Source: a virus. Taken from it: DNA of 24,694 nt. Below the pieces are notes generated by a model. The model made no database searches, was not told the origin of the DNA, and saw only the letters and a program-made list of their open reading frames with translations. The position numbers and the translations under genes are program-made. Below are positions 19,942 to 24,531 of this stretch, one piece after another (within the stretch, counting starts at the first letter, position 1; each line of letters begins with the position of its first letter). The stretch covers positions 1-24,694 of the IMG/VR virus record IMGVR_UViG_3300017759_000072, one strand, 5' to 3'.

Positions 19942-20601
19942 ATGGCATTTGCTTTAAATCGTTATACTGGCAATAACAGTACCACTACATTCAGTGTACC
20001 TTTTAGTTACCGATCAACTGATGATGTTATCGTAAAGGTTGATGGAGTAACCAAGACAATTACAACTCACTACACTTTTCCTAGTTCTAATCAAATACAG
20101 TTTGGAACACCTCCAGCTCAAGATGCAATAGTTGAGATAAGAAGAGCAACAAGTCAATCTACAAGACTCGTTGATTATGCTGCTGGTTCTGTCTTTAAGG
20201 AATCAGATTTAGACAACGATAGTATTCAGGCTTTTAATATGGCTCAAGAGTCTATTGATATTGCTGGTGATGCTTTAACAAAAGACAGTACCGATCAATT
20301 TGATGCAACAAGCAGACGTATTAAAAATGTTACTAATCCATCAGCAGCTCAAGATGCAGCTACTAAAAGTTATGTAGATGCTAATGGAGCTACTGTAGCT
20401 GTTGGATCTGTAACGACAAACACTTTGAGTGCTGGTAGTAGTGCTACAGTTGCTATTACAAACTCAGGCACGACTCAAGCTGCTACTTTAAATTTCACAC
20501 TTGGCATTCCAGTTGGTAACACTGGTGCACAAGGAAGTGCAGGTGCTGATGGTGAAACTTCACTTGCTGATGCTACAGCATTGGCTATTGCTTTAGGTTA
20601 A
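19942..20601 (+). CDS. short tail fibre anchor with gp17-like N-terminal domain
   Basis: 219 residues against 553 for T7 gp17. Residues 1-110 form the T7-type tail attachment domain (NRYTGNNSTTTFSVPFSYRS, then DYAAGSVFKESDLDNDSIQA), followed by the trimer-linker motif NPSAAQDAATKSYVD at 132-146, a Thr/Ser-rich beta region, and a short collagen-like Gly stretch (GIPVGNTGAQGSAGADGETS, 188-207). It then stops after LADATALAIALG, so there is no receptor-binding domain. AAGGA 6 nt upstream. It probably fixes to the portal/nozzle and serves as a base to which separately coded fibre proteins attach. Confidence 0.93.
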   Translation: MAFALNRYTGNNSTTTFSVPFSYRSTDDVIVKVDGVTKTITTHYTFPSSNQIQFGTPPAQDAIVEIRRATSQSTRLVDYAAGSVFKESDLDNDSIQAFNMAQESIDIAGDALTKDSTDQFDATSRRIKNVTNPSAAQDAATKSYVDANGATVAVGSVTTNTLSAGSSATVAITNSGTTQAATLNFTLGIPVGNTGAQGSAGADGETSLADATALAIALG

Positions 20602-20611
20602 AGGAGAAAAC

Positions 20612-20956
20612 ATGGCAAATACATTTAAAATAAAAACTAAAGCTGCTGTATCAAACAGCTCTTTAGCTACAGTTTATACTGTACCGAGTGCAACTACTAC
20701 GATTGTTTTAGGAATGTCACTATGTAATATTACTAGTAATGCAATCACAGCAGATGTGCAACTGGTTTCAGATACATCTGATACAGAAACAAATGCTAAT
20801 ATCTTTTTGTTAAAATCAGTAAGTATTCCAGCAAATACAACATTAGAAGTGTTTGGTGGTCAAAAGTTAGTATTACAAACAACCGATGTGGTTAAAGCTC
20901 AAGCATCAGCAGGATCTGCTTTAGACATGTCAGTATCAATCATGGAGCAAACATAG
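20612..20956 (+). CDS. small beta-rich virion or fibre protein
   Basis: 114 residues, predicted all-beta from alternating hydrophobic residues. Motifs FLLKSVSIPANTTLEVFGGQ followed by KLVLQTTDVVKAQAS and the end SALDMSVSIMEQT resemble a family of small structural proteins found next to fibre genes in marine phages; a precise role is not established. Strong ribosome-binding site AAAGGAG 6 nt upstream. Not in frame with the preceding anchor gene, so not a split fibre. Next gene begins 2 nt after. Confidence 0.75.
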   Translation: MANTFKIKTKAAVSNSSLATVYTVPSATTTIVLGMSLCNITSNAITADVQLVSDTSDTETNANIFLLKSVSIPANTTLEVFGGQKLVLQTTDVVKAQASAGSALDMSVSIMEQT

Positions 20957-20957
20957 A

Positions 20958-21812
20958 ATGCCTTATCTAGGGTCAGCACCAACAACATCGTTTCAGACAC
21001 TAGCTAAACAAGATTTTACAACAAGTGCAACAACGTCTTATACGTTATCTAATTCAGTAACAAGTGCTAATGATATAGCTTTGTTTATAAACAATGTAAG
21101 ACAAGAACCTACTGCAGCATATTCAGCAAGTGGTACTGCATTAACATTGTCAGAAGCAACAGCAGGTTCAGATGATATGTATTGTGTTTATATAGGTAGA
21201 GCCGTAGGTACAATTAATCCTGCAAGTGGTAGTGTTGGTACAAGTCAATTAGTAGATGGTTCGGTTTCAATAGCAAAATTATCAGCAACAGGCACAGCAA
21301 GTAGCAGTACATTTTTAAGAGGTGATAATAGTTTTGCAGAAGCAGGTGGAGGTAAAGTATTGCAAGTGCAAAGTGGAGCATTAACAACTCATATATCTAC
21401 AACAAGCACTTCTTATGTTGCAGTTACTAATTGCAGTATAACTTTTTCTTCTTTAGCAAGTACAAGTAGTAAAGTTTTATTATTAGGTCAAATAGGTACA
21501 AGTGGTAATCACGATACTGGGCATATGCCAGTAAGATTTGCAAGGTCTGTTGGAGGTGCAAGTTACTCAGCAGTTGGTGTAGGTACTGGTGGTGCAACCC
21601 TTAATTATACATCAGCAACATACTCTACAAATGGTGCATATTATGATGCTTATCCTTTAATGTTTTTAGATAGCCCAAGCACTACAAGTGCTACAATATA
21701 TAGAATGGAATTTCGTTCTTCTAATGGTGCTACACAATATATAAACAGAAGAAATGACGATACTCATTTTTGTGGTTTAACAACAATAATAGGTTTAGAA
21801 ATAGGTGCATAA
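20958..21812 (+). CDS. tail fibre-like protein A
   Basis: 284 residues. Three parts: an N-terminal beta domain starting MPYLGSAPTTSFQ with an LFINNVRQEP motif (1-85), shared with fibre C; a linker with TSQLVDGSVSIAKLSATG and SSSTFLRGDNSFAE (94-128), typical of phage fibre connector sequences; and a C-terminal beta-sandwich (135-284) with SKVLLLGQ, MPVRFARS and FLDSPSTTSATIYRMEF, ending GLTTIIGLEIGA. The C-terminal part is the probable receptor-contact domain. Ala codons are mainly GCA (about 24 GCA to 6 GCT), unlike the core structural genes. GGAG 11 nt upstream. Confidence 0.85.
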   Translation: MPYLGSAPTTSFQTLAKQDFTTSATTSYTLSNSVTSANDIALFINNVRQEPTAAYSASGTALTLSEATAGSDDMYCVYIGRAVGTINPASGSVGTSQLVDGSVSIAKLSATGTASSSTFLRGDNSFAEAGGGKVLQVQSGALTTHISTTSTSYVAVTNCSITFSSLASTSSKVLLLGQIGTSGNHDTGHMPVRFARSVGGASYSAVGVGTGGATLNYTSATYSTNGAYYDAYPLMFLDSPSTTSATIYRMEFRSSNGATQYINRRNDDTHFCGLTTIIGLEIGA

Positions 21813-22087
21813 TGGATTATGATAAAGCAATAAGAGCAACACATAGTTCAGTTGTAACTATACAAGGCAACACAGAAAAAAACATTGTTGCAACAGATAA
21901 AGATAATAAAGAAGTTATTATTAATTGGACAAAAGTAAATGCTTGGAAAGATCCTAATGAATATCAATATAAACGAAAAAATGAATACCCATCAATTAAC
22001 GACCAATTAGATGATATATATCACAATGGAATTGATGGTTGGAAAAAAACAATTAAAGCAGTTAAGGATAAATACCCAAAGGAATAA
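21812..22087 (+). CDS. small fibre-associated protein A (assembly/chaperone-like)
   Basis: 91 residues from the ATG overlapping the fibre A stop (TAATG). A more upstream in-frame ATG at 21770 lies within fibre A. The C-terminal half R55-K-N-E-Y to K-Y-P-K90 matches the C-terminal part of the small protein at 22602: both read RKxEY, five residues, QL, a variable stretch, NGI, and finally KYPK. Such pieces recur in phage proteins annotated as tail-assembly or XkdW-like. Its place directly behind a fibre suggests a folding or assembly helper for that fibre. Confidence 0.78.
   Translation: MDYDKAIRATHSSVVTIQGNTEKNIVATDKDNKEVIINWTKVNAWKDPNEYQYKRKNEYPSINDQLDDIYHNGIDGWKKTIKAVKDKYPKE
22070..22083 (+). 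repeat. 14-nt direct repeat, copy 1
   Basis: AAATACCCAAAGGA, identical to bases 22902-22915. It encodes the KYPK end of a small protein and contains AAAGGA, the ribosome-binding site for the next fibre gene (7 nt spacing). Confidence 0.85.
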
Positions 22088-22090
22088 ATT

Positions 22091-22600
22091 ATGCCATTAA
22101 GTAAAATATTAACAGATTCGTTAGCAACTGGTGTAGGTGGTGATGATAATACCCCTGCATTTTTTGCGTATTTAAGTGCTAATCAAACATTAACTAATAA
22201 TGCTCGTAACAAACTTTTATGCAATACTGAAACTTTTGACTCTGGTGGGCAATATGACAACTCAACTAATTATAGATTTACACCCACAACGGCAGGAAAA
22301 TATTTTGTATTTGCAAATTCTGAATATGCAAGTGAAGGTCAAGGAACAGTTAATTGGATATTAAATGAAATTTTTAAGAATGGAACATCAAGTAGTATAA
22401 GAGTTTATGGGTATATAGATTTTAGAAATAATCCTGCAAATAGTGGTAACCCAATAGCAGTTGGTGTTTTTGATATGAATGGTTCTAGTGATTACATTGA
22501 GTTTTATTCATATCCAGGCTTATCAAGTGGAACTCCCACAGCTTATGGTAATGCAACTACACCTCATACTTATTTTGGAGCATTTAAATTAGGAGTTTAA
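22091..22600 (+). CDS. fibre-like protein B with C1q/TNF-like jelly-roll domain
   Basis: 169 residues. A short leader MPLSKILTDSLATGVG, common at the start of phage structural proteins, is followed by a C1q-like domain (about 22-169): AFFAYLSANQTLTNNARNKL, then TETFDSGGQYD, then YRFTPTTAGKYFVFANSEY, and a final HTYFGAFKLGV. C1q-like domains form trimers and serve as carbohydrate- or protein-binding tips. AAAGGA 7 nt upstream, coded by the end of the preceding gene. Next gene begins 2 nt after. Confidence 0.85.
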   Translation: MPLSKILTDSLATGVGGDDNTPAFFAYLSANQTLTNNARNKLLCNTETFDSGGQYDNSTNYRFTPTTAGKYFVFANSEYASEGQGTVNWILNEIFKNGTSSSIRVYGYIDFRNNPANSGNPIAVGVFDMNGSSDYIEFYSYPGLSSGTPTAYGNATTPHTYFGAFKLGV

Positions 22601-22601
22601 T

Positions 22602-22925
22602 ATGGCAAATCTTGATAAAAAAATAGAAGCATATATGGGAAGAAGTGTTAACTTTTTATCAGAAGTAACTTTGCAAGATGATGGTAAAGGTGCATATATT
22701 TTTGAATGGAATATTAAAGATAAAGCTAAACCAACAGATGACGAACTTAAATCTAAAGAATCTGATGCAGATAAACTAGAAAAAAATGCAACAGCAATAG
22801 CTAATAGAAAAGTAGAATATGGAACTGTTGAACAACAGCTTGAATATATAGCAGAGAATGGAATAACAAAGTTTCAAGAACATGTTACTGCAATAAAAAA
22901 GAAATACCCAAAGGATGGTAGCTAA
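22602..22925 (+). CDS. small fibre-associated protein B (assembly/chaperone-like)
   Basis: 107 residues. N-terminal part has a short beta pattern (VTLQDDGKGAYIFEWN) and a PTDDELKS turn as in phage tail-assembly proteins; the middle is a charged helix (KESDADKLEKNATAIANRK); the C-terminal RKVEYGTVEQQLEYI to KKKYPKDGS is paralogous to the protein at 21812. AGGAG 6 nt upstream. Its stop overlaps the next fibre's ATG at 22925. Confidence 0.8.
   Translation: MANLDKKIEAYMGRSVNFLSEVTLQDDGKGAYIFEWNIKDKAKPTDDELKSKESDADKLEKNATAIANRKVEYGTVEQQLEYIAENGITKFQEHVTAIKKKYPKDGS
22902..22915 (+). repeat. 14-nt direct repeat, copy 2
   Basis: AAATACCCAAAGGA, identical to 22070-22083 and in the same place: at the KYPK-coding end of the small protein, supplying the ribosome-binding site (9 nt spacing) for fibre C. 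Confidence 0.85.
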
Positions 22926-23950
22926 TGCCATACATAGGAAAACAACCAGAAATTGGAGCATATAAAAAGCTAGATGCTATTACAGTAGTTAATGGTCAAG
23001 CTGCTTATACTTTACAAAGTGGATCGGCTAACTATAGTCCTGCTAGTGCGAATCATCTTATTGTAAGTCTAAATGGTATTGTACAATCTCCACAAAGTTC
23101 ATACAATGTATCTGGCAGTACAATTTCTTTCGCAAGTAATTTAGTAACAGGTGATTCAATAGATTTTATTTTAGCATTAGGAGATGTTTTAGATATTGGA
23201 ACTCCTAGTGATAATACTGTAACAAATGACAAGTTAGCTACTGCACCGACTATAATTAGTAAAGGAGATGGTGGTAGTACAGATGGAGCAATACAACTTA
23301 ACTGCTCACAGAATAGCCACGGAGTAAAAATTAAATCACCTCCACATTCGGCAGGTCAGTCGTATACATTAGTCTTGCCAAGCACAGCACCAAGTGCAAA
23401 TAAAGCATTAATTACAGATGGTAGTGGTAATTTATCTTTTGGTAGTGCTGGTGGTTTAACATTATTAAATACAACAACTTTATCATCAAGTACCTCTGCT
23501 ACTCTTCAAGGTTTAATGACAGGATATGATAATTATTTGGTTTTATATAAACTAACAAGAAGTACAAATTCAATTCCAAGATTAACATTTTTAAGTGGTG
23601 CAACTGAACTAACTTCAGGTTATCATTCACAGGGAGTTTATGGTCAAGGTTCAACTGTTGGTTCTCTTGGTGATGATGGACAAAGTTTTATTAATTTAAC
23701 TTCAACCTTTTCAAGCAGTTATGGTGCAACAGCTCCTGTGAGTGGACATTTTTATGTTATAGACCCTGATGATGCAAGTGATTTAACTTATGTTGTTGGT
23801 CAAAATGCTTTGTGGTCTAGTAGTTCAAATCTAGTCATCAATAGTTTTACAGGCTCGTCTACAACAGCACAGGCACAAGATGGATTAAAATTCGCATTAA
23901 GCACAGGTAATTATGTTGATGGATTTATTAAACTTTATGGGATTAGCTAA
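22925..23950 (+). CDS. tail fibre-like protein C
   Basis: 341 residues. N-terminal MPYIGKQPEIGAYKKLDAIT with SLNGIVQSPQSSYNVSG (1-85) is paralogous to the start of fibre A. The middle (110-175) contains DGAIQLNCSQNSHGVKIKSP followed by HSAGQSYTLVLP and SANKALITDGSGNLSF, a fibre-shaft segment I associate with marine phages. The C-terminal domain (180-341) contains LMTGYDNYLVLYKLTRST and the end STGNYVDGFIKLYGIS, paralogous to fibre D. The last codons TATGGGATT supply a weak GGGA ribosome-binding site for the next gene, whose ATG overlaps this stop. Confidence 0.86.
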   Translation: MPYIGKQPEIGAYKKLDAITVVNGQAAYTLQSGSANYSPASANHLIVSLNGIVQSPQSSYNVSGSTISFASNLVTGDSIDFILALGDVLDIGTPSDNTVTNDKLATAPTIISKGDGGSTDGAIQLNCSQNSHGVKIKSPPHSAGQSYTLVLPSTAPSANKALITDGSGNLSFGSAGGLTLLNTTTLSSSTSATLQGLMTGYDNYLVLYKLTRSTNSIPRLTFLSGATELTSGYHSQGVYGQGSTVGSLGDDGQSFINLTSTFSSSYGATAPVSGHFYVIDPDDASDLTYVVGQNALWSSSSNLVINSFTGSSTTAQAQDGLKFALSTGNYVDGFIKLYGIS

Positions 23951-24531
23951 TGGCAATAATTAGAGCAAACAATAATACTTTATCTAGTGTAACTGCATTA
24001 CCTTTTGCAACTGGTGGGTTAGTTAAAATTACAGAAACAAATATAAGTTCTAGTGTTTCAGAAGTTGTGTTCAATAGTTCTATTATGACAGGCTATAATA
24101 GATTTAAAATAGTAGTGCATAATCTTACACATTCAACACCATCAGATTTACGATTTGCAGATTCACCAGACAACGGGTCTACAATTTCTTTTACTGGAAA
24201 TTTTGGTTCTCATTATGCACAGTTAATTTCTAATTCTCATGCTGTTGGTTCGGGAAGCACTTCAAATTACTATGACTTTCAAGGTTGGAATTTAAAAGCA
24301 AATGTTGGAAATTATTATGAATTTGATTTAACAAACTTTGGTCGTTCTGGAACAAATGATTATAAAAAATATATTTGTAATTGGATACACTATAACAATA
24401 ATAATAATATTTATGGTAATTTAAATTATTTTTCTAGTTCTTTAACAAGTGCTATGAATTATATAAAATTTTTTGCATCAACTGGAACTATTGATGAAGG
24501 ATTGTTTATAGTTTATGGGATAGTAGAATAA
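23950..24531 (+). CDS. tail fibre-like protein D
   Basis: 193 residues. A minimal N-terminus MAIIRANNNTLSSVTALPFA, common in marine phage fibre-like proteins, is fused directly to one C-terminal domain: MTGYNRFKIVVHNLTHST (46-63) and STGTIDEGLFIVYGI (177-191), which match fibre C in order. The Asn-rich segment YNNNNNIYGNLNYF (148-161) is unusual. No shaft segment is present, so it may be a tip protein riding on another fibre. Confidence 0.83.
   Translation: MAIIRANNNTLSSVTALPFATGGLVKITETNISSSVSEVVFNSSIMTGYNRFKIVVHNLTHSTPSDLRFADSPDNGSTISFTGNFGSHYAQLISNSHAVGSGSTSNYYDFQGWNLKANVGNYYEFDLTNFGRSGTNDYKKYICNWIHYNNNNNIYGNLNYFSSSLTSAMNYIKFFASTGTIDEGLFIVYGIVE

Follow-up and report, generated by a model that had tools for sequence, protein, structure and literature searches.

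A 14-nt coding repeat as a probable border between exchangeable receptor-binding cassettes in a T7-like marine phage

The fibre array and its repeated junction

The window, that is, the whole 24.7-kb stretch of DNA that was analysed, is an IMG/VR fragment of a T7-like podovirus. It encodes a DnaB-type helicase, a family A polymerase, a 5'-3' exonuclease and a ribonucleotide reductase with a B12-dependent domain, together with a T7-type portal, scaffold, capsid and short T7 tail-fibre N-terminal protein. The isolates nearest to the window by DNA are mostly pelagiphages and, judged by this similarity, the virus is probably a Pelagibacter phage. The features of its fibre array are collected in Table 1.

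Table 1. Features of the fibre array, with positions in the window.
Feature	Positions	Strand
Short T7-type tail-fibre N-terminal protein (PF03906), bait for same-backbone relatives	19942..20601	+
114-aa conserved gene ahead of the fibre array	20612..20956	+
F1, first fibre after the tail-fibre stub; anchor conserved to ~21240, tip beyond variable	20958..21812	+
S1, 91-aa small protein, phrog_9114 family; type tracks the tip of the preceding fibre	21812..22087	+
Conserved C-terminal half of S1 (EYPSxxDQLDxIYHNGIDxWKxxIKxxKDKYPK), putative exchange anchor	21954..22087	+
Repeat copy 1, KYPK codons of S1 and Shine-Dalgarno (AAAGGA, 22078-22083) of the C1q-like gene	22070..22083	+
Conserved 39-nt junction leading into MPLSKI-type fibre genes (stop codon of S, Shine-Dalgarno, start, MPLSKI)	22070..22108	+
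C1q-like fibre gene, MPLSKI anchor, 169 aa	22091..22600	+
S2, 107-aa XkdW-like small protein (Pfam PF09636; fold of 2hg7)	22602..22925	+
Conserved junction of S2 end and F2 start (KYPKDGS-TAATG-MPYIGKQPEIGA)	22885..22960	+
Repeat copy 2, KYPK codons of S2 and Shine-Dalgarno (AAAGGA, 22910-22915) of F2	22902..22915	+
F2 fibre gene; anchor conserved to ~23460, tip beyond variable	22925..23950	+
F3 fibre gene; tip variable after a short conserved anchor (MAIIRANNNTLSS)	23950..24531	+

An exact search of the window confirmed the predicted 14-nt direct repeat, AAATACCCAAAGGA, which occurs exactly twice, with a spacing of 832 nt between the copies. A weaker match of 31 nt (77%) surrounds the 14-mer when the window is compared with itself. 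Copy 1 encodes KYPKE-stop at the C-terminus of S1 (...KDKYPKE), and copy 2 encodes KYPKDGS-stop at that of S2 (...KKYPKDGS). The original prediction had placed KYPK at the end of each small protein; this holds for copy 1, where one residue follows the motif, but not for copy 2, where three residues come after KYPK. It had also assigned the AAAGGA of each copy to the following fibre gene, and the spacing agrees: 7 nt to the ATG of the C1q-like gene at 22091 and 9 nt to the ATG of F2 at 22925. Both sites rank with the longer Shine-Dalgarno matches of the window, and matches of at least 4 nt precede 22 of its 26 genes compared with 36% of random positions, which makes a role of AAAGGA in translation credible. 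As a bare sequence, the 14-mer was rejected as a significant repeat, since it is within chance of dinucleotide shuffles: the window holds 13 exact repeated 14-mers against 6.2 ± 3.4 in the shuffles, 29% of which contain a repeated 14-mer pair within 1 kb. Its significance comes instead from the comparison with relatives.

The product of the C1q-like gene has no Pfam match at E ≤ 1, to C1q or to any other family. Its AlphaFold model (pLDDT 82.5), however, matches C1QL1 (4qq2) with a TM score of 0.83 on target and an E-value of 2e-7; the model thus predicts a C1q/TNF-type jelly-roll fold, and the name given to the protein in the original prediction is right by fold.

Both small proteins match PHROG family 9114 (E 2e-18 for S1 and 2e-19 for S2) and share only ~30% identity. 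S2 matches XkdW with 37.7 bits (Pfam cut-off 24.6); S1 itself gives no Pfam match to XkdW, and 18 of 32 aligned S proteins do so at E ≤ 0.01. The sole credible PDB match of the S2 model (pLDDT 94.8) is the PBSX XkdW structure 2hg7 (TM 0.69 on target, E 0.058, prob 1.00). Among the 32 S proteins, no Pfam match to the tail fibre assembly families (Tfa/Caudo_TAP) was found at E ≤ 0.01, and homology to Tfa was therefore rejected; S2 has one weak PHROG match named tail fiber assembly protein (E 0.017). Prochlorococcus phage P-SSP7 encodes, shortly after its tail fibre, an uncharacterised S1 relative (PSSP7_040, 2995-3285 of L217; 44% identity, E 1e-14), so that the S family reaches a well-studied isolate. 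Two S genes with distinct N-terminal types (L016, 6001-6279; L112, 489-788) have the same unusual C-terminal DNA, IEKWKSEMIKPIKDKYPKE, which points to exchange inside the small genes as well.

Variation at the junction among related phages

Thirteen further contigs contain the tail-fibre stub of the window at 92-99%, and nine of them have a readable slot. The C1q-S2 unit was found in none of these nine slots; it is kept, with both repeats, in an additional contig (L006) that is 99.9% identical to the window. In L218/L138, L220/L113, L222/L114 and L228, homology to the window ends at 22108-22141 and restarts at 22920-22922. The slot in L218, L220, L222 and L228 contains one MPLSKI gene of 164-209 aa, and in the first three, where it is complete, there is no second small gene. 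In L226, L118 and L120, homology restarts with the opening base of copy 2 (22902). The slots differ while the upstream genes of these relatives are 91-100% identical to those of the window, which argues for replacement and not slow divergence. The predicted replaceability of the unit is thus supported by a fibre order that differs among relatives and by borders that lie, in same-backbone slots, at the repeat-bearing junctions. Further borders common to these relatives are found at 21235-21242 (F1), 21954-22001 (S C-terminal half) and ~23460 (F2), those in F1 and F2 being devoid of the 14-mer. Within F1, a 30-nt island at 21309-21338 (STFLRGDNSF region), 90-94% conserved in most same-backbone relatives, sits between two variable stretches and is perhaps another exchange point.

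The unit also occurs on a different backbone. By portal comparison, the backbones of L100 (IMGVR_UViG_3300029448_000279), L101 and L137 differ from that of the window, with an identity of only 24% for the L100 portal. Across 22070-22600, L100 is nevertheless 99.2% identical to the window in DNA. Its S1 upstream of the unit is 75% and then 84% identical, with the last mismatch before the block at 22066, and its fibre tips are ~50% identical. On the right side, identity is 96-100% to 22810, 85% at 22811-22884 and 97% at 22885-22960. By these steps, the unit is bordered on the left at copy 1 and on the right within the C-terminal half of S2 (~22813), ~90 nt before copy 2. Taken together, the contigs show units that have been replaced, are absent or have been added, with borders at the junction.

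Other arrangements were observed as well. L101 (4449-8164) has a longer array, composed of F1, an S2-like gene, a C1q-like gene, S2, a MALSKI fibre, S1 and F2, whose three small genes suggest that cassettes can accumulate. S1-like and S2 genes lie side by side, with no fibre gene between them, in L131 (4705-5332) and L133 (1225-1851), and the adjoining S genes of L131 both have the exact 14-mer, 331 nt apart. The 67,849-bp record IMGVR_UViG_3300030406_002001 (L093/L128 and L137/L009), possibly a joined assembly of two phages, contains two fibre arrays with different upstream genes. The following fibre genes of these arrays are ~93% alike, the preceding small gene is S2 in one and S1 in the other, and the change-point falls at the first base of the 14-mer.

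The original prediction that the unit may be lost at the repeat is matched by product-like loci, in which S1 is joined to F2 with the KYPKDGS-TAATG tail (L014, L020-L022). On the upstream side, the S genes of L014 and L020 resemble S1 of the window (73-85% identity, compared with 37-60% to the S2 context), and from +14 onwards the identity is 80-88% to the copy-2 context and 12-16% to the copy-1 context. The S1-to-F2 loci thus switch from the context of copy 1 to that of copy 2 inside the 14-mer. The form of L014 and L020 is that which would be expected from recombination between the two copies with loss of the unit, a change that can be read in either direction. The mirror arrangement, S2 followed by an MPLSKI gene, is seen in L128, L135 and L011. 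Where loci are alike upstream (93% or more) and different downstream, 37 of 42 pairwise change-points, which are not independent of one another, lie between +14 and +43, and the other five are near +100.

A set of 97 non-redundant junctions was compiled, the sequences of which are related, so that the counts are not independent. As predicted, the repeat is conserved in relatives: the exact 14-mer is present at 24 of the 27 MPLSKI junctions, whichever small gene precedes, at four of 13 F2-type junctions and at six of the 57 others. The link between the 14-mer and the downstream type has p = 5e-5 by permutation within upstream classes, with relatedness ignored. MPLSKI genes are preceded by S1 in 10 cases, by an S1-like group in seven and by S2 in 10, and F2-type genes with the 14-mer likewise follow either S1 or S2; each of the four combinations of S type upstream and fibre type downstream is therefore present and carries the 14-mer. 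These distributions indicate that the 14-mer travels with the downstream gene. The choice of the KYPK codons is almost fixed at MPLSKI junctions (1.0, 0.83, 1.0 and 1.0) and mixed at the others (0.5-0.6).

A conserved island extends from 0 to +39 with divergent sequence on both sides; the rows of this profile were picked for the MPLSKI start, which conditions positions +21 to +38; the sole condition on the first 21 was a degenerate KYPK pattern. A short conserved block between unrelated flanks in different phages, the mark of a mosaic boundary sequence, is thus found here. The 14-mer appears to be the core of a longer anchor, which comprises 39 nt before MPLSKI genes and ~150 nt with the C-terminal half of S. 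Where that half is also shared, the alignments place the crossover no more finely than within the anchor.

Pairing of the small protein with the fibre tip

The last 140 residues of the fibre preceding each S gene were clustered as tips. One cluster of 51 is associated with S1 types only and another of 27 with S2 only, and a recount with another duplicate filter gave clusters of 52 and 26. In 78 of 78 cases in the two large clusters, S type can be predicted from the tip cluster; the exception is a small mixed cluster, with five members, seen in the recount. The rule applies among fibres with the same anchor, both in the first fibres after the 114-aa gene (12 S1-type, six S2) and in MPLSKI-type fibres (four S1-type, five S2). 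The type of the small gene evidently tracks the tip of the preceding fibre and not its anchor, which argues that the exchanged piece is a fibre tip with its cognate small protein. The S genes lie directly downstream of a fibre gene and are matched to its tip, as tail fibre assembly proteins are. S is most likely a partner of the fibre tip, acting as a chaperone, cap or connector, and the C-terminal half common to the S proteins suggests both a shared role and an exchange anchor.

Interpretation and known systems

From the comparison of sequences, we consider that exchangeable receptor-binding cassettes in this T7-like marine phage are probably separated by a standard border with the repeat at its core. 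A cassette would comprise a fibre gene, with a short conserved N-terminal anchor and a variable tip, usually followed by a tip-matched, XkdW-like small protein. Because the KYPK codons that close the small gene also carry the ribosome-binding site for the fibre gene after it, any small gene ending in this way could be joined to any fibre gene with this start, with neither the stop nor the start signal being lost. Recombination between co-infecting phages would proceed through homologous pairing or annealing across the junction and the C-terminal half of S, and selection would favour products with intact translation and with a matched tip and partner, the small protein serving its fibre tip in one of the capacities named above. 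The self-contained cassette of the original prediction stands as regards exchange at the repeat junctions; the moving piece, however, appears to be a fibre tip with its small gene, and other breakpoints exist.

The repeat is missing from the F1 and F2 borders, the right border of L100 lies outside copy 2, and 14 nt is short for RecA-type pairing, all of which count against a border function of the repeat. Several observations agree with a passive role, in which recombination is illegitimate or occurs anywhere, selection retains only those products that join at gene or domain borders with their start signal intact, and the common stretch is passed on as part of the downstream gene. This reading fits the right border of L100 and the repeat-free borders at domain limits, which lie at 21235-21242 in those same-backbone relatives whose sequence extends that far, and the 14-mer tracks the downstream MPLSKI gene, as would be expected of the gene's own 5' end. 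We regard a passive role as rather unlikely, because the unrelated contexts of S1 and S2 switch within the one block that they share without a difference, and the conserved block takes in codons beyond the Shine-Dalgarno. It is very improbable that the 14-mer has no part in recombination and that its identity reflects chance together with functional constraint on two homologous small genes, both with a conserved KYPK ending and a Shine-Dalgarno. The common membership of S1 and S2 in phrog_9114, the frequency of exact 14-mer repeats in the window and the strength of AAAGGA as a Shine-Dalgarno here would all suit such an origin, but it is contradicted by the same-backbone comparisons, in which slots differ between phages with 91-100% identical neighbours and have sharp borders at the junction, and by the existence of all four S/fibre pairings.

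The order F1-S1-C1q-S2 resembles two pairs, and the array of L101 is longer, with three small genes, as if a fibre and small-gene pair had recently been duplicated in tandem and the repeat were a remnant. The low identity between S1 and S2 contradicts a recent duplication; moreover, the F1 and C1q tips are in different clusters and the same units are found apart in other phages, so that we give this origin hardly any credence. That the repeat brackets a gene of receptor-binding type might recall a dedicated switch, namely an invertible segment, a site-specific recombinase or a diversity-generating retroelement. The repeats are direct and not inverted, no long inverted repeats flanking the unit were found in the window, and no recombinase, invertase or reverse transcriptase was matched among the scanned proteins of this 24.7-kb fragment of the genome. 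An invertible or site-specific switch was rejected on these grounds, and the probability of a dedicated switch of any kind is close to nil.

Beyond the border function of the repeat itself, it is possible, and proposed here tentatively, that marine phages with different backbones use one plug-and-socket format for their receptor-binding arrays, in which the RBS-bearing coding end is maintained as a recombination anchor and the XkdW-like proteins, with their common C-terminal half, are tip-matched partners. If so, tips could be exchanged, added and removed among unrelated phages with translation unbroken. The junction would provide a concrete border for receptor-binding exchange in very abundant ocean phages, where such exchange was previously known mainly as hypervariable islands. 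A testable role, that of matched partner of the preceding fibre tip, would follow for the widespread and uncharacterised phrog_9114/XkdW-like family, and the pairing rule could be used for annotating tips and partners in metagenomes.

The N-terminal domain of S2 has family and fold in common with PBSX XkdW, the gene of which also sits after a fibre gene; the S proteins differ by an added C-terminal helical half, conserved across types, that would serve as the exchange anchor. In the invertible G segment of phage Mu, a constant fibre N-terminus is combined with a variable tip and a matched assembly protein. The cassettes of the window can be likened to it in the constant N-terminus and in the variable tip with a matched partner. 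By contrast, inversion, inverted repeats and invertase were not detected in the window, and exchange here is between phages. A limited literature search found no account of a coding end with the added functions of ribosome-binding site and exchange border, or of a pairing rule between tips and XkdW-like proteins, and nothing usable on deletions between short repeats in T7.

The metaviromic islands described for marine phages, pelagiphages included, are hypervariable regions of host recognition that were identified by read recruitment; they hold tail fibre, C1q-domain and XkdW genes and combine a conserved N-terminus with a variable C1q or C-terminal part (PMC3909814). Both this gene content and the conserved N-terminus with a variable C1q part recur in the array of the window; no description of borders, of the overlap of stop codon and Shine-Dalgarno, or of the pairing of small protein and tip was found in that paper. 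Conserved boundary sequences have been proposed to guide homologous recombination in phage mosaicism (summarised in PMC3029335). A short shared sequence at a module junction between unrelated flanks is common to that proposal and the present locus, where the boundary, in addition, codes for the end of the upstream protein and serves the downstream gene as its ribosome-binding site. Distantly related Alteromonas phages have in common a module of tail fibre and cognate chaperone, the chaperone being proven by experiment (PMC10579305). As in that system, a fibre and its downstream small partner move together between unrelated backbones; the partner is here a predicted, XkdW-like one, the units are part of arrays of several fibres, and the border is a short conserved junction of coding sequence and ribosome-binding site.
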